Shown here: positions 5,868-30,100 of the stretch, piece after piece
How the letters are laid out: every line of letters starts with the position of its first letter
Position numbering within the stretch: position 1 is the first letter of the stretch
Made by a program: the position numbers and the translations under genes
Notes under the pieces: generated by a model
Told to the model about the DNA's origin: nothing
Seen by the model: only the letters and a program-made list of their open reading frames with translations
The model's database searches: none
Virus record (IMG/VR): IMGVR_UViG_3300033144_004193
Coordinates: 1 to 30,100 of that record
Length of the DNA stretch: 30,100 nucleotides
From: a virus
Strand: one strand, 5' to 3'

Positions 5868-6626
5868 TTATGTTTGTGATGGACCATAATTAATAACATT
5901 TTGTTTAGCAGCTGCAAATATACCATTTGCAAAGCCTTGACACTTGGTTCTTACCCAAGGTTCATGCCAGGTATAATCTACATTAAACTCAATGTCAAGG
6001 TCCAATCTTCCAACTGTCTCAACATCACTTGTGTATAAATCTTGTGGATCTTTCGTTGGGAATACTCCATCATATGCTGCATAGTATTCTACTGTTTTTG
6101 CATCTGGTGCTGTAGTCCAGTAATACATAATTGAAGCATAAGTCGATTTGGAATATCCTTGTCCTTCATCTCCATCTTCAAGATCAGTAATACCAGTTCT
6201 GTAATCTCTAATCATTTTAACCCAACCATGCATAATGTCTAAAAGCGGAGTTCGGTTAAATTCTAAAAACTTAACAGATACTGAATTACCATAATCAATA
6301 TTTCCAGGAACTGCCCATTTAACACCACCTAAACCTGTAAACTCTACTTTGTTTAAAGTTCCCCCTGGCGGAGTCACTGAAAGACATGAAGCTGCAAGGA
6401 TGTTCTGAATAGCTCCATTAGAATTTATACCACTGGAAGTTTCGCCCCCAGATGTATTGGGGCCTCCAGTCGAAACATAATTAGGTAGGGTAGCGGGTAG
6501 TTTCTCAAACCATACAAAATGATAACCGGAAACGTAAGGGTCAGCAACACCAGCAGATGTCCCTCCAAATTTTCTAGTTAAAATATTTTGCCCCAATTGA
6601 GCAAAAGCATACTTCATTCCAGCCAT
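5868..6626 (-). CDS. Tail tube protein, T4 gp19-like
   Basis: This 252-aa protein should form the inner tube through which DNA passes. The central block YGNSVSVKFLEF followed by WVKMIRDYRTGI (about residues 117-146) is the tube-protein pattern: a beta-rich core followed by an amphipathic segment with W.K.IRDYR.G. The C-terminal part (VGRLDLDIEFNVDYTWHE) continues the beta barrel. The family is usually 150-200 aa, so this one is longer, with insertions near residues 50-75 (Gly/Ser/Thr-rich loop). AAGGAGGA precedes the ATG, consistent with a highly expressed protein. Tube and sheath genes are normally adjacent; here a HAD gene and the plus-strand cassette separate them. Confidence 0.8.
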   Translation of the reverse strand: MAGMKYAFAQLGQNILTRKFGGTSAGVADPYVSGYHFVWFEKLPATLPNYVSTGGPNTSGGETSSGINSNGAIQNILAASCLSVTPPGGTLNKVEFTGLGGVKWAVPGNIDYGNSVSVKFLEFNRTPLLDIMHGWVKMIRDYRTGITDLEDGDEGQGYSKSTYASIMYYWTTAPDAKTVEYYAAYDGVFPTKDPQDLYTSDVETVGRLDLDIEFNVDYTWHEPWVRTKCQGFANGIFAAAKQNVINYGPSQT

Positions 6627-6647: not shown

Positions 6648-7139
6648 TTACACAGCACGTTTATATTTGATACGCTTTTTAATAACATTTAGAACTACTT
6701 TCCAATCGCCATTTGGTATACTAATAGCTTTGTCGTCTATATAAAAATCTGCGGCTAATTTTTCAGCTGTAATTTTATCAAAGTAGATATTATTTTTCTT
6801 TAACCATTCTTCAATTTTCTTGATCTGATCTAAGTGGTTGCCTCCTAATTCCTTTGCATTTTGTTCAGAGGCTCGTGTTGTAAAAATAACTATTTCGTAA
6901 CCATTGTTTTTCAGATAGTTGATAACTTCTTTAGCACCTTCAAAAGGATCATCGTAAATTGTACCGTCCGCATATCCTTTTGAATATTTATGAATAGTTC
7001 CATCCAGATCTATCATTGCTCTTTTCTTCATTCTTTCATCTTTATTTTCTGGATATATTGTTCGAAGAATTTTTCTCTTTTTCGGAGTCGGGAATGAATC
7101 TATTGCAAAATCTTCATCCATTTGTTTTAAAGGTATCAT
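6648..7139 (-). CDS. HAD-superfamily phosphatase
   Basis: The four HAD motifs are present: DLDGT at residues 44-48 (nucleophile D44, acid/base D46), T87 in VIFTTR (motif II), a lysine near 127 (motif III) and DFYIDDKA at 131-138 (motif IV acidic pair). The cap is small, so substrates may be small phosphates or nucleic-acid ends. About 36 residues precede the catalytic domain; an alternative start at residue 37 (MKKRAMIDLDGT) would give a compact 127-aa enzyme. The first ATG is about 20 bp from a late-type promoter element and has only a weak AGG upstream. It is the promoter-proximal gene of the tube/baseplate operon. Substrate unknown; phosphatases of this type in phages are often nucleotide or polynucleotide processing enzymes. 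Confidence 0.8.
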   Translation of the reverse strand: MIPLKQMDEDFAIDSFPTPKKRKILRTIYPENKDERMKKRAMIDLDGTIHKYSKGYADGTIYDDPFEGAKEVINYLKNNGYEIVIFTTRASEQNAKELGGNHLDQIKKIEEWLKKNNIYFDKITAEKLAADFYIDDKAISIPNGDWKVVLNVIKKRIKYKRAV

Positions 7140-7200: not shown

Positions 7201-7216
7201 AACTATATATATTAAT
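7201..7216 (+). promoter_or_regulatory. Candidate plus-strand promoter motif, copy 1
   Basis: AACTATATATATTAAT lies 52 bp before the radical SAM gene. An identical 16-mer lies 37 bp before the other plus-strand cassette (13352-13367), and both sit back to back with a minus-strand promoter element. TATATATTAAT could provide the -10 region. AAGGGGGA directly before the ATG at 7268 is the ribosome binding site. Confidence 0.45.
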
Positions 7217-7267
7217 ATTTGATATTAAATATAAATTTACTTTATTTTTTTCAAGAAAGGGGGAATC

Positions 7268-8284
7268 ATGAAACACTTTTTAAAGAAATTTGAAAATTCA
7301 GATTATAAAATAACTTTTGATTCTGAAAATGGATTGGAAATACTTCAAGGGATAAATGGAAAACCAGACCCGTTTTTCTTACAACTACCATCTTTATTGG
7401 ATATAGGTATTATGGGTCATTGTGAAAACAATTGTCATTTTTGTTATCAAAGCGACTATTATGAAGATAATATGACTCTTGATAACTTCAGAATGATTAT
7501 TGATCAAGTTAAAGTACATACAAACCAAGTCGCCCTCGGAGGAAGGGGAGATCCAAACCTTCATGAAAACTTTAAGGAGATAGTTGAATATGCAAGAGAT
7601 AATCATGTAATACCCAACTATACTACCAGTGGGATAGGGCTGACTGATGAACAGATTGAAATAAGCAAACTGTGTGGTGCTGTAGCTGTTAGCGACTATG
7701 AACAAGAATATACTTATAATGCAATAAAGAGATTCATGGATGCTGGGATAAAAACAAACATTAACATTATCTTTAACAAAGCAACTTATGAAAAATGCAT
7801 TAAATTAATCTCTGGCTATGATCCATGGATGAAGTTACCGAAATATAAAAATGAAAGTAATGTTGATCTCGCTCGTCTCAATGCTGTTATATTTTTATTA
7901 TTTAAACCCATTGGATCAGCAAAAGACAAGCTAGAATTATTCCCCACAAAATATCAGATCCATATCTTTATTGATAGAATAGTCAACAGCCCCTGTAAGT
8001 TCCAACTTGGTATGGATAGCTGTCTTACCCAATATCTTCGGAGGGAAGGTGGTGATCTAACTCCAACACAAGAACTACATATTGATTCTTGTGAAAGCGC
8101 AAGGATGTCTAGCTATATAAGCCCATCATTACAAATGGTTCCATGTAGCTTTGGGGACAATGATAAGTGTGGAGTGAATATTAAGGAGAAAGATATTGAT
8201 TATATTTGGAATAGATCCCGCAAATTCACAGGATTCAGAAAGAAACTTAAAAAGAATCCATATGTTTGTCCGTTGGGTTTCTAA
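7268..8284 (+). CDS. Radical SAM protein with SPASM-like C-terminus
   Basis: The 338-aa protein has the radical SAM cluster motif CX3CX2C at C52, C56 and C59 (GHCENNCHFCYQ) and the SAM-binding segment GGRGDPNLH at 91-99. The C-terminal region has four cysteines (C275, C293, C301, C334) spaced like a reduced SPASM or twitch domain that binds auxiliary iron-sulfur clusters. Enzymes of this layout modify peptides or proteins by radical chemistry. The ATG has AAGGGGGA just upstream. The next gene begins within the stop codon (TAATG), so the two are translationally coupled. The substrate is not known; the TNSSSSSF protein two genes on is an obvious candidate. A role in nucleotide or cofactor modification remains possible. 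Confidence 0.85.
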   Translation: MKHFLKKFENSDYKITFDSENGLEILQGINGKPDPFFLQLPSLLDIGIMGHCENNCHFCYQSDYYEDNMTLDNFRMIIDQVKVHTNQVALGGRGDPNLHENFKEIVEYARDNHVIPNYTTSGIGLTDEQIEISKLCGAVAVSDYEQEYTYNAIKRFMDAGIKTNINIIFNKATYEKCIKLISGYDPWMKLPKYKNESNVDLARLNAVIFLLFKPIGSAKDKLELFPTKYQIHIFIDRIVNSPCKFQLGMDSCLTQYLRREGGDLTPTQELHIDSCESARMSSYISPSLQMVPCSFGDNDKCGVNIKEKDIDYIWNRSRKFTGFRKKLKKNPYVCPLGF

Positions 8285-8472
8285 TGTCAATATATGAATA
8301 TCAATGTCCCCAGTGTAATAAAATTATTGAATTTTGGGCGGAAGTTGATGAGAGGCAAGAACCAACATGTAAAACATGTAAAATAAAAATGCCAAAAATA
8401 ATATCACAATCTAGTTTTCATCTGAAAGGTTCAGGATGGGCACGGAATGGATATAGCAAGGAGAAAGGATGA
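8284..8472 (+). CDS. FmdB-like zinc ribbon protein
   Basis: The start is taken as the ATG at 8284, which overlaps the TAA of the radical SAM gene; a longer frame from TTG at 8266 would run inside that gene. The 62-aa product begins MSIYEYQCPQC and has C8/C11 and C29/C32, with a tail of KGSGWARNGY, the pattern of the small FmdB-type regulatory zinc-ribbon family (aromatic YEY before the first CxxC, a GSGW motif near the end). Family members bind zinc and their function is poorly known. The final TGA overlaps the next gene's ATG (ATGA). As part of a coupled operon it could hold or present the substrate of the radical SAM enzyme, but this is inference. Confidence 0.75.
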   Translation: MSIYEYQCPQCNKIIEFWAEVDERQEPTCKTCKIKMPKIISQSSFHLKGSGWARNGYSKEKG

Positions 8473-8969
8473 AAATTAAACCTGATTTTATTACGAACTC
8501 CAGTTCATCTAGTTTCATTGTAGCATGGCCATATAAAATAAAGACAATAGAGGATGTATCCAATTATATTCGTGGTCGTGCGAAATGTAGAGTAATTTTT
8601 AATGATTCTGTATCACAACCAGCTTCAAGAATGAAGAAAACAGTATCTCTTATAAAAAGGATGGCCGGAGAACTATCACATTTAATAGCCTCAAAACATT
8701 ATGATGAATATAAAAAAGATTTTCTAAAACGGAATGACATTACAGAACAAGAAATGAACCAGAACCGATCTTGGAGTACTCTATTCTGGGATGAACAGAA
8801 TAAGACAATGGACATTGCTGCGAAAAAGGAAGCTATAATATTCATAGAAAAAAACCCGGGTAAGTATTGCTATATTTATGAATATGAAGATGATACTTCG
8901 ATGGGTTCTGAGCTTGAACATGGCGATACATTTAGAAATCTTAACCACATACAAATAAGCAAACATTAA
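8469..8969 (+). CDS. Protein with N-terminal TNSSSSSF tract, possible radical SAM substrate
   Basis: The 166-aa protein begins MKIKPDFITNSSSSSFIVAW, with five serines at residues 11-15. From memory, the N-terminal pattern MKI(R/K)xDF(V/I)TNSSSSSF recurs at the start of otherwise unrelated bacterial hypothetical proteins, as if it were a tag or recognition sequence rather than a fold. The remainder is a charged, helical domain (about residues 50-100 basic, 100-166 acidic) without recognised motifs. The ATG overlaps the FmdB-like stop (ATGA) and is preceded by AAGGAGAAAGG. Constant N-terminus plus a linked radical SAM/SPASM-like enzyme suggests post-translational modification of the Ser/Asn tract. 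This is a hypothesis, not a known assignment. Confidence 0.8.
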   Translation: MKIKPDFITNSSSSSFIVAWPYKIKTIEDVSNYIRGRAKCRVIFNDSVSQPASRMKKTVSLIKRMAGELSHLIASKHYDEYKKDFLKRNDITEQEMNQNRSWSTLFWDEQNKTMDIAAKKEAIIFIEKNPGKYCYIYEYEDDTSMGSELEHGDTFRNLNHIQISKH

Positions 8970-8980
8970 GGAGGTGACTT

Positions 8981-9475
8981 ATGCAAGGAAATTATAATGC
9001 ATGGGGTGAACAAAGGGTCATTATAGAATGTGTAGCCCTTCCCCCTGAGTTAGATTTGAATACTTTCTTATCTCTTCCCGAAAGCGTAGGAAGATTTACA
9101 GATTCAAGAATGAATAAAAAACAAATACTCTTGATAGGAACATCAATTCAATCCTCTCCAATATTTACATTAACCAATGCCAAGCCTTCAGTTTTCGTTT
9201 CATGTATTACCTTTTTGAAGATTTTACAGGAATTGGATCTAACAGTTCAAGGAATATCAAATGTTAAAAGTTCAAACATAAAATATGACGATTTCCTTTC
9301 TTTTCTAGATCCATTGACTAACGGGGATGAACTGTTCAGCGACGTAGTAGTTGTTGTCATAAATTTATTTCCTTTGATTTCAGATAATATTATGGAGGGG
9401 GCACTAGAAAGTATAGTAAAGCTTGAAGAATTTCAAACAGAAATTCAAGAGTCTATACAAATGGCTACGAAATGA
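8981..9475 (+). CDS. Unknown 164-aa protein, last gene of the radical SAM cassette
   Basis: The family is not recognised. A strong AAGGAGGTGACTT precedes the ATG. The protein has no cysteine pair or catalytic motif; it has a mixed alpha/beta look with hydrophobic strands (KQILLIGTS, FSDVVVVVINLFPLI) and a charged C-terminal helix. No clear signal peptide; the VVVVVINLFPLI run at about 125-136 is short for a membrane helix. It follows the TNSSSSSF gene by 11 bp and precedes a terminator, so it belongs to the same transcript and may be a partner in the same process. Confidence 0.75.
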   Translation: MQGNYNAWGEQRVIIECVALPPELDLNTFLSLPESVGRFTDSRMNKKQILLIGTSIQSSPIFTLTNAKPSVFVSCITFLKILQELDLTVQGISNVKSSNIKYDDFLSFLDPLTNGDELFSDVVVVVINLFPLISDNIMEGALESIVKLEEFQTEIQESIQMATK

Positions 9476-9480
9476 CGGAA

Positions 9481-9520
9481 AAGAGTCACTCGATTTTATT
9501 AACCGAGTGACTCTTTTTTT
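9481..9520. terminator. Strong intrinsic terminator between converging genes
   Basis: Perfect 12-bp inverted repeat AAGAGTCACTCG (9481-9492) and its complement (9504-9515) with an 11-nt loop. On the plus strand it is followed by a T tract (TTTTTTT, 9514-9520) and ends the radical SAM cassette. On the minus strand the tract is TTTTCC, so it could also end the sheath transcript, but less efficiently. Confidence 0.9.
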
Positions 9521-9528
9521 GTAACTGA

Positions 9529-11481
9529 TTATTCAATAAAGAAGTTTAATTCAATTTGTTCAACAACCCGAGTAGGATCTAGGGTTACATTAACATGAAA
9601 TCTCTTAGTTTTTCTTTCATATTCGGTAGCACCTACTTCCACTGTATAATTAAACAAACCTCGTCTTGTTTTAACTACTTCTAAGAATGCATTTAACTGA
9701 GATGATACTTGACCCCATGTAATTTCATCATTTTGTTCAAAGATAAAGAATCTACAGAACTGTTCAAATGATCTCTTAATAAATAGGACCAATCTAACAA
9801 TATTTAAATCTTGTAATGCGCTTGGTCTTGCTTGACTTGTCAATTGACCCCAAACCACATAACCAGGATTAAACTTCACAATTGGGTTTAACTGATTCAA
9901 GTACAGCTGATCTCGTTGACCCAACCTTGGATTATATCTTAGTTCCTTAATTGTATCAATTGATGCTCTGTTGAAACCAGCAGCAGCAAACCATAGCTCT
10001 GATACAGTATCATTTCTAGGTAATAGATAAGCCATATGATAACCAGGAGAGAACCAAACATCCTGACCAGTAAAAGTATCAAACACTCTATTATATGATT
10101 CATAGAGAGCAACAAAATAAGTATTAAATGTTAACGTAGTTTGCCTTGTAGAAAGGGCAGCATTAACAGTTGCATTATCTCCATTGTCTAAAATAGCTAC
10201 ACAATCTCTTCTTGTTTGAACAAGAGTACTAATTGTTGTTTTAACATCAGTTGGATATCCACAATCATATACTAATGTGAAATAAATATTTTCAGTATCT
10301 AATACGCTATCATCTATGAGTCCAGCATAACCTTGAGACAATAGTGTTGTTGCTTCAGCAGTTACAAGATCACCAGAAGCATCTAGAAGAGAACCATCAC
10401 TTCCTTTCTTTAAAGGTTGTGGTACAGCTGTTATAAATGGTTGTGCCAGATTTGCATATGATTCTTTAATCCTATATGTAACTTCAGATGCAGGATTAAA
10501 ATCTGTTGTATTACCATTCCAACTTTGAGTTGCAGAACCAATTACTCTACTATCATATACAGCAACGGTTTCATCTTCAGCTCCACTTGCTAATCCCAAC
10601 CAACCCCAAATCTCAACACCTTTAGCATCTTTAGCAGTAACGGTATATCTAGCACTTGTAACTAGCAGTTGCCAGTCAGTAAAGTCTTGCTTATTATCTG
10701 TAATTGTTGCAGAAGCAGCCGTAGTGACTGCAACTACAGTTCCAATATCCTTATCATAAACTTTGACAGCTTTTTTATAACCATCTGATAATGAACCAGA
10801 GGCTAATTCCATCTCTGCATTTAAAATAGATGAGTATGTGTTTAGAACATCAACGATCCATGCTGAATCACCAACTTGATCTTTGGCTGTTGGGTCAAAT
10901 GAAATCTGAAATGACTCAATAATTACATCATCCCCATCTGATTGTTTCTCGTATATATCAAGAACGTATACATCCCAAACTGCAGGATTGGCAAACTCTG
11001 TAATTCGTATTCCGAGATTGTTATACCATTGACCTCTTCCGATGGGATATAGAAAACATATTGGATATGTTGGGTCTGAAGATACTAGATTTGTTTGAAT
11101 TTCATCTTTACTATTCAGACTATCAACATAAGTGATTGTAATTGCTGCTGTTGTGTCTGTAGTAGTAAGATTTGCATCCAATCTCATATTAGCATATGTT
11201 GCATCCTCTGAAAGGACTCTCATAAAATATAGAGCCCCAGATTCTCCTAAGTAGTTATATGCAAAATATGGACCTTGACCATAGTTTTTTCCATAAGTTT
11301 GTATATTTGGATCTCCAAATTCTGAAATATAATCTGCTCTTGATCCAACAAACTTTAGGACATTATCTTCACCTTTTTCTGTAAGGGCACAAATAAAGCC
11401 AATAGTCGAAGGAGCGACTTGAATAAATGTAGATAAATCTACAATTTTTGTAAAAACACCTGGGCTCACATTGCTAGGCAT
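9529..11481 (-). CDS. Contractile tail sheath protein, T4 gp18-like
   Basis: The 650-aa protein opens with the sheath signature SPGVFTKIVDLSTFI, followed by residues building the protease-resistant domain and a C-terminal core (VVWGQLTSQ, LNIVRLVLFIKRSFEQFCRFFIFE, TRRGLFNYTV) that is conserved in sheath proteins of contractile phages and related injection systems. Length matches T4-type sheaths (about 660 aa). GAGGAGGAAAG precedes the ATG, as expected for an abundant protein. The protein polymerises around the tail tube and contracts to drive injection. It converges on the radical SAM cassette and is apparently a separate transcription unit. Confidence 0.94.
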   Translation of the reverse strand: MPSNVSPGVFTKIVDLSTFIQVAPSTIGFICALTEKGEDNVLKFVGSRADYISEFGDPNIQTYGKNYGQGPYFAYNYLGESGALYFMRVLSEDATYANMRLDANLTTTDTTAAITITYVDSLNSKDEIQTNLVSSDPTYPICFLYPIGRGQWYNNLGIRITEFANPAVWDVYVLDIYEKQSDGDDVIIESFQISFDPTAKDQVGDSAWIVDVLNTYSSILNAEMELASGSLSDGYKKAVKVYDKDIGTVVAVTTAASATITDNKQDFTDWQLLVTSARYTVTAKDAKGVEIWGWLGLASGAEDETVAVYDSRVIGSATQSWNGNTTDFNPASEVTYRIKESYANLAQPFITAVPQPLKKGSDGSLLDASGDLVTAEATTLLSQGYAGLIDDSVLDTENIYFTLVYDCGYPTDVKTTISTLVQTRRDCVAILDNGDNATVNAALSTRQTTLTFNTYFVALYESYNRVFDTFTGQDVWFSPGYHMAYLLPRNDTVSELWFAAAGFNRASIDTIKELRYNPRLGQRDQLYLNQLNPIVKFNPGYVVWGQLTSQARPSALQDLNIVRLVLFIKRSFEQFCRFFIFEQNDEITWGQVSSQLNAFLEVVKTRRGLFNYTVEVGATEYERKTKRFHVNVTLDPTRVVEQIELNFFIE

Positions 11482-24575: not shown

Positions 24576-27332
24576 TTACATACTTCCTTGAGGTACTGAA
24601 CCTAATACCCAATACTCTATATGTGCGTTTCTAACATTACAACTTGGTGGCGACGGCTGTGGTACCACACGATATTGTAACTCAAATGTTTTTTCTTCAC
24701 CATTACCAACATTATAAGTGAAACCAGAAAATGTAAAAAAGTTCAAATTATTATTTGTTTGTTGCCTATTTAGTGCTATAACGTCATCTGCAGTTGTATC
24801 ATATAATCTAACCTCTACTGATTTATTATTGTTTCCAGAGTTGAACTCCATAGCAAAGCCAACTCTATAAACAGAAGTAGAATCAATAGGTGGAACAGTC
24901 AAACCTAGTTTGGTTTGGTATTCGATACTTGTTGTAGAGGATAGAGTATCATCTACAACATATTGAATTCCCAATAATTCCCAAATTCCTTGTGGATCCT
25001 CATCTGGAGAAGTACCTGATGTTCCTGAACTACCCGATGTCCCACTAGAGCCGGACGACCCATCAATTCCAGAAGTTCCTGATGATCCCGAACTACCAGA
25101 TGTACCACTACTTCCACTTGACCCAGATGATCCCGAACTACCAGATGAACCACTACTTCCACTTGACCCTGATGTACCACTTGTCCCATCTACCCCATCT
25201 ATTCCTGATGTTCCACTTGAACCAGATGATCCCGAACTACCAGATGAACCACTAGTTCCAGATGTACCAGGAGTTCCCGTATATGAAAAACATATAAAAC
25301 ATTCTTTACCATCAGTTAAATTATCATCATTATCTTGAAGAGTTACTTCATATTTTACATAACCAGTGGCCCCACCAACTTGGGTTATTGAGTCAATTTC
25401 AAATAATCCCCATTTAGTGGCATTCTTCTTTTCTTGAAGATAGATTTCATCGCCAACGTTACCCAAAAGGAGAAAGTTAATTACATTTGACCCAAATTCA
25501 TCAACAGCATCCACATAAATTTCGGTAACAGATGATATTGTAGTATTATTTGTTCTGAACTTACCATTCCCCGGATCTGCTTCTGTTGTATTATTATCAT
25601 ACTTCCACTCACTACAAGAAGCCCCAGCTCCATCAGCTCCAGATGTACCACTAGTTCCATCTGCTCCATCAAGACCTGAACTGCCAGATGTACCACTGGT
25701 TCCATCTACCCCATCAATTCCAGATGTACCGCTTGATCCAGATGTACCACTAGTACCATCTATTCCGCTTGTACCTGAACTACCACTTGAGCCTGATGAA
25801 CCACTGCTTCCGCTTGAACCAGATGAACCTGAACTTCCCGATGTTCCGCTTGACCCAGATGAACCACTGCTTCCGCTTGAACCTGATGAGCCAGAAGTCC
25901 CACTTGAGCCCGATGTTCCGCTAGTACCATCTATTCCATCAATTCCTGATGTTCCACTACTACCTGAACTTCCGCTTGAACCTGATGATCCTGAACTTCC
26001 GGATGTTCCACTAGAACCAGATGAACCCGAACTTCCTGATGTACCACTAGTACCATCTACTCCATCAATTCCCGATGTACCACTTGACCCCGAAGAACCT
26101 GAACTGCCTGATGTTCCACTACTTCCTGAGCTTCCAGATGTTCCACTTGAACCGCTAGTACCTGAACTACCCGATGATCCTGAACTTCCGCTTGAACCAG
26201 ATGTACCACTTGATCCTGATGTGCCACTAGTACCATCTACTCCATCAATTCCCGATGTACCACTTGACCCCGAAGAACCTGAACTTCCGGATGTTCCACT
26301 AGTCCCAGACGAACCACTAGTACCAGATGTTCCTGAAGCCCCTGAAAAAACTGGAGTCGTAAGATAAGATGTATGAGTTAAACCTTCATAATAAAAGCAT
26401 AGAGTCACAATAGCTCCACTAGTAGTTACTCCATAAATTTCAACTACTAATCTATCATTTAAACCAAATTCAAGAGGAACTACTTGACTTATACTCCATT
26501 GATGTAGAGTTGCAGTAACCGTATCTACTTCTAGGGATGTTGTTGAAATAAGCAATGTAGAAGTAGTATCTGAAACTTTATATAATTTTAATACAAAATT
26601 TGTAATGCCAGCAGTAGGTGTTACATCTCCATAAGTATAAAAAGTCCATGTTCCAGGGCTTACTATTTTTCCAGCAAAACATCCACAATCTGTTGTCCAT
26701 CTATCAAATAAAACTTCACCATCTCCACTATCAAAAGCTCTACATAAAATATTTTCTGGATCGTCTGCTGGAATTGGATCCAATAATAAATATGATGTAG
26801 TATCACTAGGATTCTCCTCATGATAATAAAAAATCCCTCCAGTTGGTGATTGACCGCTTGTTCCTGAACTGCCTGATGAACCGCTTGAACCCGAACTACC
26901 ACTGGTCCCAGATGTGCCTGTCCCAGGTGGAAGAGCAGAAGCAGGAATATGATCTGTATTAATCCAAACATCATTAGTTGAATCATAAAGAAAGACTTGT
27001 CCTTGTGTTGGATCATTAGTATCAAAGTATGTTCGATCATTTCCAACACTTCTTGCATACTGTAAATGAGTATCTCCTGCATCTAACTCTCCAAGATCGT
27101 TATGGACAACAGCTTCTTCAGTTTTAGTGATTACAGATCCATCTTCATCTTTAACTGTAATCCATCCGCTATCAATGGCATTCTGAACAGAAGTAGAAGA
27201 TCTAATTTCTTCTGCTTTAAACTCATCTATTAAATCTAAATCAACTGTTGGATGCTCAATTATTCTATAACCAAGATCATAAAATATAACTGAAGTAGCA
27301 TCTCCAGTTGTAGTAATTATAAATGATGCCAT
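24576..27332 (-). CDS. Collagen-like (Gly-X-Y) tail fibre protein (918 aa)
   Basis: The N-terminal 150 residues contain HNDLGELDAGDTHLQYAR, a pattern typical of phage fibre attachment regions. A Gly-X-Y segment, a head domain (FYYHEENPSDTTSYLLLDPI onward, ending TTPVFSGASG), a long Gly-X-Y run of GTS, GSS, GID and GVD triplets, a globular insert (CSEWKYDNNTTEADPGN to CFICFSYTG), another run and a C-terminal globular domain (about residues 800-918) follow. The triplets lack proline, unlike animal collagen, but should form trimeric rods. AGGAG lies upstream; the ATG overlaps the previous stop (TAATG). It is probably a trimeric receptor-binding fibre. Confidence 0.85.
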   Translation of the reverse strand: MASFIITTTGDATSVIFYDLGYRIIEHPTVDLDLIDEFKAEEIRSSTSVQNAIDSGWITVKDEDGSVITKTEEAVVHNDLGELDAGDTHLQYARSVGNDRTYFDTNDPTQGQVFLYDSTNDVWINTDHIPASALPPGTGTSGTSGSSGSSGSSGSSGTSGQSPTGGIFYYHEENPSDTTSYLLLDPIPADDPENILCRAFDSGDGEVLFDRWTTDCGCFAGKIVSPGTWTFYTYGDVTPTAGITNFVLKLYKVSDTTSTLLISTTSLEVDTVTATLHQWSISQVVPLEFGLNDRLVVEIYGVTTSGAIVTLCFYYEGLTHTSYLTTPVFSGASGTSGTSGSSGTSGTSGSSGSSGSSGTSGIDGVDGTSGTSGSSGTSGSSGSSGSSGSSGTSGSSGTSGSSGSSGTSGSSGSSGSSGTSGIDGVDGTSGTSGSSGSSGSSGTSGSSGSSGSSGSSGSSGTSGIDGIDGTSGTSGSSGTSGSSGSSGSSGSSGSSGTSGSSGSSGSSGSSGSSGSSGSSGTSGIDGTSGTSGSSGTSGIDGVDGTSGTSGSSGLDGADGTSGTSGADGAGASCSEWKYDNNTTEADPGNGKFRTNNTTISSVTEIYVDAVDEFGSNVINFLLLGNVGDEIYLQEKKNATKWGLFEIDSITQVGGATGYVKYEVTLQDNDDNLTDGKECFICFSYTGTPGTSGTSGSSGSSGSSGSSGTSGIDGVDGTSGTSGSSGSSGSSGSSGSSGSSGSSGTSGSSGSSGTSGIDGSSGSSGTSGSSGTSGTSPDEDPQGIWELLGIQYVVDDTLSSTTSIEYQTKLGLTVPPIDSTSVYRVGFAMEFNSGNNNKSVEVRLYDTTADDVIALNRQQTNNNLNFFTFSGFTYNVGNGEEKTFELQYRVVPQPSPPSCNVRNAHIEYWVLGSVPQGSM
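25618..26340 (-). repeat. Gly-X-Y coding repeat block in the first fibre gene
   Basis: Degenerate 9-bp units encode GTS, GSS, GID and GVD triplets. One 62-bp stretch (26044-26105) recurs exactly at 26224-26285, 180 bp away. Shorter runs of the same type lie at about 25008-25272 and 26842-26930. Confidence 0.85.
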
Positions 27333-30100
27333 TATATTCTTCTCCTAAAGAAGACCTCAACTAATGGACGTCTTATAGCAGTTCCGCTCATGAAAATTTG
27401 AACTCTATCTTCCTTATTAAAATCTGTATTTTTAGTATAATCGGAATTCACTCTAGATGCTGTCATGGTTAGTGAGTCGAGAATCGTTACCTCATCATTC
27501 TTACGAATTTCAGCAGTCCAGGTTTGAGGATCTTCTCCTGAAATTGATATTCCAACTAGGGTGGCATCAAATAGTAACGGATAACCATTTAAATTTATTG
27601 GCGAACCATCATATGTATATAGATACATATCTATTACATTGTTAGAATCCCTGCCTGCTCCAAAATTAACCATTGCAACAGATAAAGTTTTTCCTCTAGT
27701 TGTATCAAAATAAACAACTTCATTTGCAGTGGTGTCATAATACACTCCACTATCTTCTCCAGATGTACCAGATGAACCACTAGATCCACTTGAACCAGAT
27801 CCATCTTGACCCGATGTTCCGCTTGTTCCATCTATACCATCTTGACCCGATGTTCCGCTTGTACCAGATATTCCCGATGTTCCATCTATACCATCTTGAC
27901 CTGATGTTCCACTTGTACCAGATATTCCTGATGTTCCGCTTGTTCCATCTATCCCATCTAATCCTGATGTACCACTAGATCCCGAACTACCTGAGGTACC
28001 ACTTAAACCGGATGTACCGCTAGTACCATCAACTCCGTCTATTCCTGATGTACCACTTGAACCAGAGCTGCCGCTACTACCATTACTTCCTGATGTACCG
28101 CTCGTACCATCTAACCCATCTATTCCACTAGTTCCACTTGATCCGGATGATCCATCTATGCCAGATGTTCCACTAGTTCCATCAACTCCATCAATACCAG
28201 AAGTGCCTGAACTTCCACTAGAACCAGAAGTCCCTGATGTACCATCAATCCCTGATGTACCACTAGTTCCATCAACTCCTGATGTACCACTTGATCCAGA
28301 TGTACCCGAAATACCACTAGAACCAGAAGTCCCATCAATCCCGTCTATTCCTGATGTACCTGAACTTCCAGACGAGCCATCAATTCCTGATGTACCACTT
28401 GAACCTGATGATCCCGAACTTCCGCTTGTTCCAGATGTTCCATCAATACCACTAGATCCCGATGTTCCATCTAATCCATCAATACCCGATGTACCTGAAC
28501 TTCCAGACGAGCCATCAACTCCAGATGTTCCACTAGTTCCATCTGCTCCATCAACTCCAGATGTACCGCTTGATCCAGATGATCCATCAACTCCAGATGT
28601 ACCACTGGTTCCATCAATACCCGATGTACCTGAACTTCCAGAAGATCCGTCTATTCCTGACGTTCCACTAGTACCGTCTGCTCCATCAATACCCGATGTA
28701 CCTGAACTTCCAGAAGATCCGTCTATTCCTGACGTTCCACTAGTACCGTCTGCTCCATCAATACCCGAAGTCCCACTAGTTCCATCTGCTCCATCAACTC
28801 CAGATGTACCACTTGACCCAGAAGATCCGTCTATTCCTGACGTTCCACTCGTACCATCTATTCCATCAACTCCAGATGTACCGCTTGAACCTGAACTTCC
28901 ACTACTTCCAGATGTACCATCTATTCCATCAACTCCAGATGTACCGCTTGAACCTGAACTTCCACTGGTTCCATCTAATCCATCAATACCAGAAGTACCA
29001 CTTGTTCCATCTAATCCATCAATACCAGAAGTCCCACTTGAACCACTAGTACCTGAACTACCAGATGTTCCACTCGTACCATCAATCCCGTCTATTCCTG
29101 ACGTTCCACTTGAACCACTAGTACCTGAACTACCAGAAGATCCGTCAATTCCCGAAGTTCCTGATGTACCGTCTACTCCATTAATACCTGAACTTCCACT
29201 CGTACCATCAATCCCGTCTATTCCAGATGTTCCTGAACTTCCTGATGATCCGCTTGAACCTGAACTACCAGAAGTTCCTGATGTACCATCTACTCCGTCT
29301 ATTCCAGATGTTCCTGAACTTCCAGACGAACCATCAACTCCAGATGTTCCACTAGTACCATCAACACCATCAATTCCTGATGTACCACTTGATCCTGATG
29401 AACCACTGGATCCCGAACTACCAGACGATCCTGATGTTCCGCTTGTCCCATCAATTCCATCAATACCTGATGTACCTGAACTACCTGACGAACCACTTGA
29501 ACCATCAATACCTGATGTACCTGAACTACCGCTTGAACCACTAGATCCTGAACTTCCTGATGTTCCACTTGTCCCAGAAGCACCAGAAAATATCGGAGTC
29601 GTAAAAAAGGATGAATGAGGTGCTCCTTCAAAATAGAAGCAAGTTGTTACATTCGCTCCAGATGTGGTAATTCCATAAACTTCAACTAAGATTCTATCAT
29701 TAGCATTAAAAAATATTGATTGAGCCGTAGCATAAGACCATGTTAATTCAGTTACAGTTGTTTCATTTACTTCTGGAGATGTTGTTTCAAAAAGAAATTC
29801 TGAAGTGGAATCATTATACTTGAAAACTTTTAATACAAAATTTGTCACACCTAAAGTTGGTGTAACATCGGCATATGTATGAAATGTCCATGAACCGGGG
29901 CTAATTATTGTTTCCCCTGGTTCCCCAACATTTGTCATCCATCTATCATATAAAACTTCACCATCACCATTATCAAAAGTTCTACATAGAATATTTTCTG
30001 GATCATCAGCTGGAATTGGGGTTAGTAATAAAAATGACGTATTATCATTAAACTCTTCATGATAATAATATACTGCTCCTCTAGGAGTCTCACCACTGGT
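27332..30100 (-). CDS. Collagen-like (Gly-X-Y) tail fibre protein, cut at the right edge
   Basis: The frame stays open from the stop at 27332 to the last base (922 codons visible). An internal ATG at 29938 is not the start, because the upstream codons continue the head domain: YYYHEEFNDNTSFLLLTPI and NILCRTFDNGDGEVLYDRW, matching the same domain in the neighbouring fibre. Then follows a very long Gly-X-Y region of GTS, GSS, GID and GVD triplets (about 600 residues), and a C-terminal globular domain ending VQIFMSGTAIRRPLVEVFFRR. The shared head domain shows that the two fibre genes arose by duplication. The true N-terminus is beyond the window. Confidence 0.85.
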   Translation of the reverse strand, partial: TSGETPRGAVYYYHEEFNDNTSFLLLTPIPADDPENILCRTFDNGDGEVLYDRWMTNVGEPGETIISPGSWTFHTYADVTPTLGVTNFVLKVFKYNDSTSEFLFETTSPEVNETTVTELTWSYATAQSIFFNANDRILVEVYGITTSGANVTTCFYFEGAPHSSFFTTPIFSGASGTSGTSGSSGSSGSSGSSGTSGIDGSSGSSGSSGTSGIDGIDGTSGTSGSSGSSGSSGSSGSSGTSGIDGVDGTSGTSGVDGSSGSSGTSGIDGVDGTSGTSGSSGSSGSSGSSGTSGIDGIDGTSGSSGINGVDGTSGTSGIDGSSGSSGTSGSSGTSGIDGIDGTSGTSGSSGTSGSSGTSGIDGLDGTSGTSGIDGLDGTSGSSGSSGTSGVDGIDGTSGSSGSSGSSGTSGVDGIDGTSGTSGIDGSSGSSGTSGVDGADGTSGTSGIDGADGTSGTSGIDGSSGSSGTSGIDGADGTSGTSGIDGSSGSSGTSGIDGTSGTSGVDGSSGSSGTSGVDGADGTSGTSGVDGSSGSSGTSGIDGLDGTSGSSGIDGTSGTSGSSGSSGSSGTSGIDGSSGSSGTSGIDGIDGTSGSSGISGTSGSSGTSGVDGTSGTSGIDGTSGTSGSSGSSGTSGIDGVDGTSGTSGIDGSSGSSGTSGIDGLDGTSGTSGSNGSSGSSGSSGTSGIDGVDGTSGTSGLSGTSGSSGSSGTSGLDGIDGTSGTSGISGTSGTSGQDGIDGTSGISGTSGTSGQDGIDGTSGTSGQDGSGSSGSSGSSGTSGEDSGVYYDTTANEVVYFDTTRGKTLSVAMVNFGAGRDSNNVIDMYLYTYDGSPINLNGYPLLFDATLVGISISGEDPQTWTAEIRKNDEVTILDSLTMTASRVNSDYTKNTDFNKEDRVQIFMSGTAIRRPLVEVFFRRRI
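27756..29585 (-). repeat. Long Gly-X-Y coding repeat block in the second fibre gene
   Basis: About 1.8 kb of degenerate 9-bp units encoding Gly-X-Y triplets, mainly GTS, GSS, GID, GVD and GAD. Synonymous codons vary between units, so most of the array is old, with some recent exact duplications inside it. Confidence 0.9.
28610..28768 (-). repeat. Recent exact 72-bp tandem duplication
   Basis: The 72-bp unit at 28611-28682 is repeated without a change at 28683-28754, and the match runs on into 28755-28768. It encodes eight Gly-X-Y triplets (24 residues). Identity at synonymous sites shows a recent length change by recombination or slippage. Confidence 0.85.

Follow-up and report, generated by a model that had tools for sequence, protein, structure and literature searches.

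Co-travel of a radical SAM enzyme with an N-terminal tag on unrelated phage and bacterial proteins points to an undescribed form of protein marking or modification

Results

A four-gene cassette among the tail genes of a T4-like phage

The window (the whole 30,100-nucleotide stretch of DNA analysed here, positions 1 to 30,100 of IMG/VR record IMGVR_UViG_3300033144_004193) covers the tail region of a T4-like phage. On the minus strand the flanks carry tail genes, for baseplate components (T4_baseplate, gp25), a tail-tube-like protein, a HAD phosphatase and the tail sheath, which marks the window as a piece of a T4-like myophage genome; searches for tRNAs and Rfam families gave no match within it. 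Among these genes lies a plus-strand operon of four genes, with open reading frames where the sequence-only reading of this DNA had placed them, coding for a radical SAM enzyme, a zinc ribbon, a protein with a serine-rich N-terminal tag and a fourth protein, P0004. That reading located the operon between tail tube and sheath; it does lie amid the tail genes, but its immediate neighbours are the HAD phosphatase gene and the sheath gene. The features are as follows.

5868-6626, minus strand: tail-tube-like protein (weak PHROG match)
6648-7139, minus strand: HAD phosphatase (family searches)
7268..8284, plus strand: radical SAM enzyme P0001, 338 aa, with a SPASM/twitch-like C-terminal part, phrog_7293 (Pfam, PHROG, AlphaFold, Foldseek)
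7421..7444, plus strand: CxxxCxxC motif, C52/C56/C59, for the catalytic [4Fe-4S] cluster (alignment)
8021..8269, plus strand: region of C252, C275, C293 and C334, proposed ligands of an auxiliary cluster (invariant in 64/64 alignment rows)
8284..8472, plus strand: FmdB-like zinc ribbon P0002, 62 aa, a sporadic neighbour (TIGR02605, 50.3 bits)
8469..8969, plus strand: tagged protein P0003, 166 aa, phrog_7397, proposed substrate (PHROG; model of the body)
8469..8522, plus strand: N-terminal tag of P0003, MKIKPDFITNSSSSSFIV (tag scans and column counts)
8981..9475, plus strand: P0004, 164 aa, of a family without a name (neighbours the enzyme at 64/98 distinct loci)
9477..9519, no strand assigned: terminator-like hairpin and T-run separating the operon from the convergent sheath gene (folding)
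9529-11481, minus strand: tail sheath (family searches)

The enzyme stop codon and the zinc ribbon start codon are coupled by TAATG and the zinc ribbon and tagged protein reading frames overlap by ATGA, both as read earlier, and a strong SD sequence (AAGGAGGTGA) lies ahead of the P0004 gene. The hairpin (−21.9 kcal/mol) was seen by folding, its 11-base loop exceeding the loop limit of the hairpin scan. A related contig (L002), whose enzyme is 51% identical, carries the same cassette in the same position. The HAD phosphatase whose gene separates the cassette from the tail-tube-like gene is polynucleotide-kinase-like, and L002 has one too; in L002 (1999-4403) and in L095 a CCA-adding-like gene and a second nucleotidyltransferase-like gene (assigned by eye) lie directly upstream of the enzyme. 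At 24576-29938 the window also carries two very long tail-fibre-like genes (918 and 868 aa) in which collagen-like repeats are abundant.

The enzyme models as a putative SPASM/twitch-type maturase

The assignment of P0001 as a radical SAM enzyme with C52, C56 and C59 as its motif cysteines was borne out by a Pfam Radical_SAM match above cut-off (37.6 bits against 29.5; 3.3e-9), by the predicted structure (AlphaFold pLDDT 92.9) and by Foldseek, where the best matches of the model were SuiB (E 1.4e-14), PqqE and SkfB. The Pfam SPASM match falls below its cut-off (17.6 against 21.5 bits). In a 64-row alignment C52 and C59 are invariant, C56 is present in 59 rows and the four C-terminal cysteines are present in all. 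By analogy with SPASM enzymes these four would hold one auxiliary cluster, and the more cysteine-rich branch of bacterial and megaphage enzymes, which has a fuller cysteine tail (TIGR04085 26.5 bits, cut-off 27), presumably holds two. One branch of the enzyme (L006, L031, L033, L078 and L080) combines an unusual spacing of the catalytic cysteines (for example C-x7-C-x6-C) with a fuller SPASM cysteine tail. P0001 models as a putative peptide-modifying radical SAM protein of the SPASM/twitch type. The named NCBIfam radical SAM equivalogs (HxsC, PqqE, SkfB, viperin and others) scored at best 43-48 bits, far under their cut-offs, and general family searches recognised no RRE-like (PqqD-like) peptide-binding domain in the enzyme. 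A viperin-type defence enzyme was considered and rejected, as the PADLOC similarity is weak and the NCBIfam viperin score is 21.6 against a cut-off of 180.

The tag is N-terminal and is carried by unrelated proteins

The tag follows the consensus M-K-I-[KR]-x-[DG]-[FY]-[VI]-[TS]-N-S-S-S-x-x-[FY], a common start being MKIKxDF(V/I)TNSSSSSF. A degenerate DNA pattern for F-x-T-N-S-S-S-S-S-F, used without reference to the enzyme on 2.9 million viral contigs, matched 68 contigs, compared with two for the reversed pattern, and 81 of the 82 matches are N-terminal, 4-9 codons past a start codon. Serine codons of both the TCN and the AGY type occur at every tag position, which argues for selection on the protein rather than on the DNA. 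That the tag is a DNA-level element (a recombination site or the end of a mobile element) or a low-complexity match arising by chance, as its serine-rich composition might suggest, is thus scarcely credible: the matches are in frame at gene starts, the reversed pattern is almost absent and the codons are mixed.

The 153 distinct tagged proteins (a few short entries among which may be false) fall into 46 body clusters, so that the earlier impression of a recurring N-terminus on unrelated proteins holds. In a set of 48 diverse tagged proteins the only invariant tag residues are N10, S11 and S12; this set was picked by a motif in which the N is fixed and the positions after it are limited to few letters, but a count with a looser motif agrees. 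Tagged proteins are mostly 80-200 aa long; their bodies span about 80 to 720 aa and, beyond the tag, have no conserved residue in common. In many of them the tag is followed by a hydrophobic stretch resembling a beta-strand, which might suggest a single divergent family of which the N-terminus is merely the most conserved part. We regard this as highly improbable given the range of lengths, since profile comparisons of the nine largest clusters detected no relation except in one pair and one body is BRCT/DNA-ligase-like. Moreover, the tag has dialects that follow the genome and not the body: Vibrio phage D479 has GFVSN on five different proteins where most other genomes have DFVTN, and tags on unrelated bodies agree better within a genome (77.4%) than across genomes (68.5%), a difference reached in 0/2000 permutations.

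P0003 itself matches phrog_7397 (2.3e-11), a family that matched only 10 of the 48 diverse tagged proteins. A sulfatase C-terminal Pfam family matched weakly in 4 of 50 P0003 relatives (best 7.8e-6), and Foldseek against PDB and BFVD found no known fold for the P0003 body at E ≤ 0.001. In the model the body is confident, residues 1-10 have low confidence and the first strand begins within the serine run, suggesting that the tag is accessible and yet joined to the fold. The arrangement, a conserved N-terminal part ahead of variable sequence, recalls the leader–core layout of RiPP precursors, and with the low confidence of residues 1-10 it would suit a tag that is a docking leader only, the enzyme binding NSSSxxF and modifying residues of the body as leader-guided RiPP enzymes do. 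We think this unlikely, as the bodies are unrelated, the one modelled is confidently folded and there is no conserved residue beyond the tag, whereas the serine core varies least, as a modified site would. We infer instead that the tag is both what the enzyme binds and what it modifies.

Tag and enzyme travel together in viral contigs

The test proposed with the sequence-only reading, association of TNSSSSSF genes with radical SAM genes, came out positive. A member of the enzyme family is present in 61 of the 68 tagged contigs (56 in the fetched flank and five elsewhere in the contig), usually directly upstream of the tagged gene, although it should be noted that these contigs are partly near-copies and do not represent 68 independent events. 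In six of the other seven (L005, L008, L019, L022, L032 and L039) the contig is a fragment or the tag lies near its end; the seventh, L067, is a genuine exception, no enzyme having been detected in its 331,849 bases. Its one tagged protein (L273, 8914-9399) is cysteine-rich (MKFRKDFVTNSSSSSFICAVCGE).

Scanning in reverse, from the enzyme alignment, yielded 80 loci, or 59 once near-copies were removed. A tagged gene lies within 3 kb of the enzyme at 34 of these, two more end too soon and 23 have the enzyme with no tag in the fragment examined, some of the tagless fragments being 20-41 kb long. At the tagless loci the enzyme lies in a tail cassette together with members of the P0004 family and further genes, and several of these contigs carry no tag anywhere. 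The deep branches of the enzyme tree all include tagged loci, and the tagless ones are nested within the T4-like group, close to its tips. Twenty whole viral records contained between one and ten tag matches each (108 in total, against 10 for the reversed control), and 15 of the 20 had exactly one enzyme; large phages have up to about ten tagged genes with one enzyme. A 259,732-base phage (L051, G404) has one divergent enzyme; its ten tags are deviant, reading [FY][IV]TNSSSTSF and lacking the MKIK..D start.

The pairing recurs in complete T4-like phages and in Clostridia

Among complete T4-like genomes the RB43-like phage GAP161 carries two tags with its one enzyme and Vibrio phage D479 carries five, also with one enzyme, while T4, RB49, KVP40 and Aeh1 have neither. 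About 170 GenBank phages match both P0001 and P0003, nearly all of them RB43-like by organism tally. In GAP161 the enzyme lies about 20 kb from the tagged genes, and the pairing is kept across the RB43-like phages. The enzyme was found in 6 of 391 Clostridia genomes, with a tagged gene beside it in all six:

G001: tagged gene beside the enzyme, MKFRTDFVTNSSSSSF twice
G088: tagged gene beside the enzyme, MKIRSDFVTNSSSTSF
G147: tagged gene beside the enzyme, MKIKADFVTNSSSTSF
G069: tagged gene beside the enzyme, variant tag VKIRKGFVTNSSSTNF
G300: tagged gene beside the enzyme, MKVRLDYVTNSSSVSY
G044: tagged gene one gene from the enzyme, MKYRTGFVTNSSSSSN

Strict N-terminal tags occur in three of the 391 genomes, all of which have the enzyme (hypergeometric P 2e-6), the remaining pattern matches not being N-terminal tags. 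The G069 locus is on a 2.4 Mb contig amid cellular genes, indicating that the trait is not confined to phages. In one metagenome-assembled genome (G002) three contigs bear tags and there is a single enzyme. At two clostridial loci (L196, 2696-5979; L200, 4969-7488) three consecutive genes code for a membrane protein, the enzyme and a tagged protein of large size (480-720 aa). Overall, enzyme family and tag co-occur in hundreds of phages and some bacteria.

Zinc ribbon and P0004 as neighbours of the enzyme

P0002 belongs to the FmdB family, as previously read, scoring 50.3 bits against TIGR02605 (cut-off 31.3). FmdB-like genes adjoin the enzyme in only four of the fetched lineages, and we therefore discard the zinc ribbon as a core part of the system and find no support for the earlier suggestion that it acts as substrate carrier. 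The P0004 family (motif FVAxPxxFDIxxYLSMRExxGxF; window 8981-9475, L098, L112, L142 and others) matches no known family and lies within 3 kb of the enzyme at 64 of 98 distinct loci, whether tags are present or not. As tagless loci pair the enzyme with this family and others, the enzyme may have a second partner. Taken further, the tag would be a localisation or assembly signal for another factor and the enzyme, co-inherited with it, would act on a different substrate such as P0004, which adjoins it at many tagless loci. This seems distinctly unlikely to us, since relatives of P0004 were not found at the RB43-like, D479, bacterial or group-B megaphage loci, where tags are present, and since the widely separated enzyme and tag genes of GAP161 are still retained jointly across the RB43-like phages. 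GAP161_110 was examined as a possible P0004 relative and no relationship was found.

Discussion

The co-travel of tag and enzyme points to an undescribed protein marking or modification, and the main idea of the sequence-only reading stands, far more strongly than the window alone would allow. The best reading, which we hold to be probable, is that of a portable tag recognised in trans and modified by a radical SAM maturase. The enzyme encoded at 7268-8284 would recognise the N-terminal tag whatever protein bears it, here P0003, and radical chemistry would modify the tag, most likely inside the invariant N-S-S-S or at the flanking aromatics, a single enzyme per genome serving one to about ten tagged proteins. 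That this amounts to a general post-translational tagging system of phages and bacteria, in which one enzyme per genome places a novel modification on the portable N-terminal NSSSxxF tag of many unrelated full-size proteins, we put at somewhat better than even. For a role in host takeover or defence, also suggested earlier, we found nothing supportive, PADLOC giving weak viperin-like similarity only.

Known radical SAM maturases serve short peptides or single partner proteins. The present enzyme resembles SPASM/twitch maturases (SuiB, PqqE, SkfB, anSME, EpeE) in fold, in the CxxxCxxC motif, in the extra conserved cysteines and in the adjacency of its gene to that of a candidate substrate. It differs in that identity is about 14%, no RRE was recognised by family searches and no NCBIfam equivalog is reached, and in that a genome may have up to about ten candidate substrates, all of them full-size unrelated proteins that share the tag at their N-terminus. 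RiPP maturase systems act on a short precursor peptide, whereas tagged proteins of 80-200 aa and up to about 720 aa are not of that kind. Prokaryotic viperin (pVip) shares weak similarity in the radical SAM core (33 bits), but viperin acts on nucleotides. P0002 passes the FmdB model cut-off but is a sporadic neighbour. The closest counterparts are phrog_7293, which P0001 matches at 1.8e-23, and phrog_7397; RB43-like phages carry relatives of both, and PHROGs gives the two families without function and without a mutual link. NCBIfam has no named family for the enzyme, and literature searches, with most subscription papers and preprints outside their scope, found neither TNSSSSSF nor NSSSSSF and no description of the system.

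The proposal can already be put to the test in the RB43-like phages that infect Enterobacteriaceae. If it is true, it would offer a possible genetically encoded handle for protein chemistry and a lead to the function of two PHROG families and of hypothetical genes by the dozen. A single enzyme acting with a portable tag on many unrelated proteins would then amount to a novel means of marking proteins.
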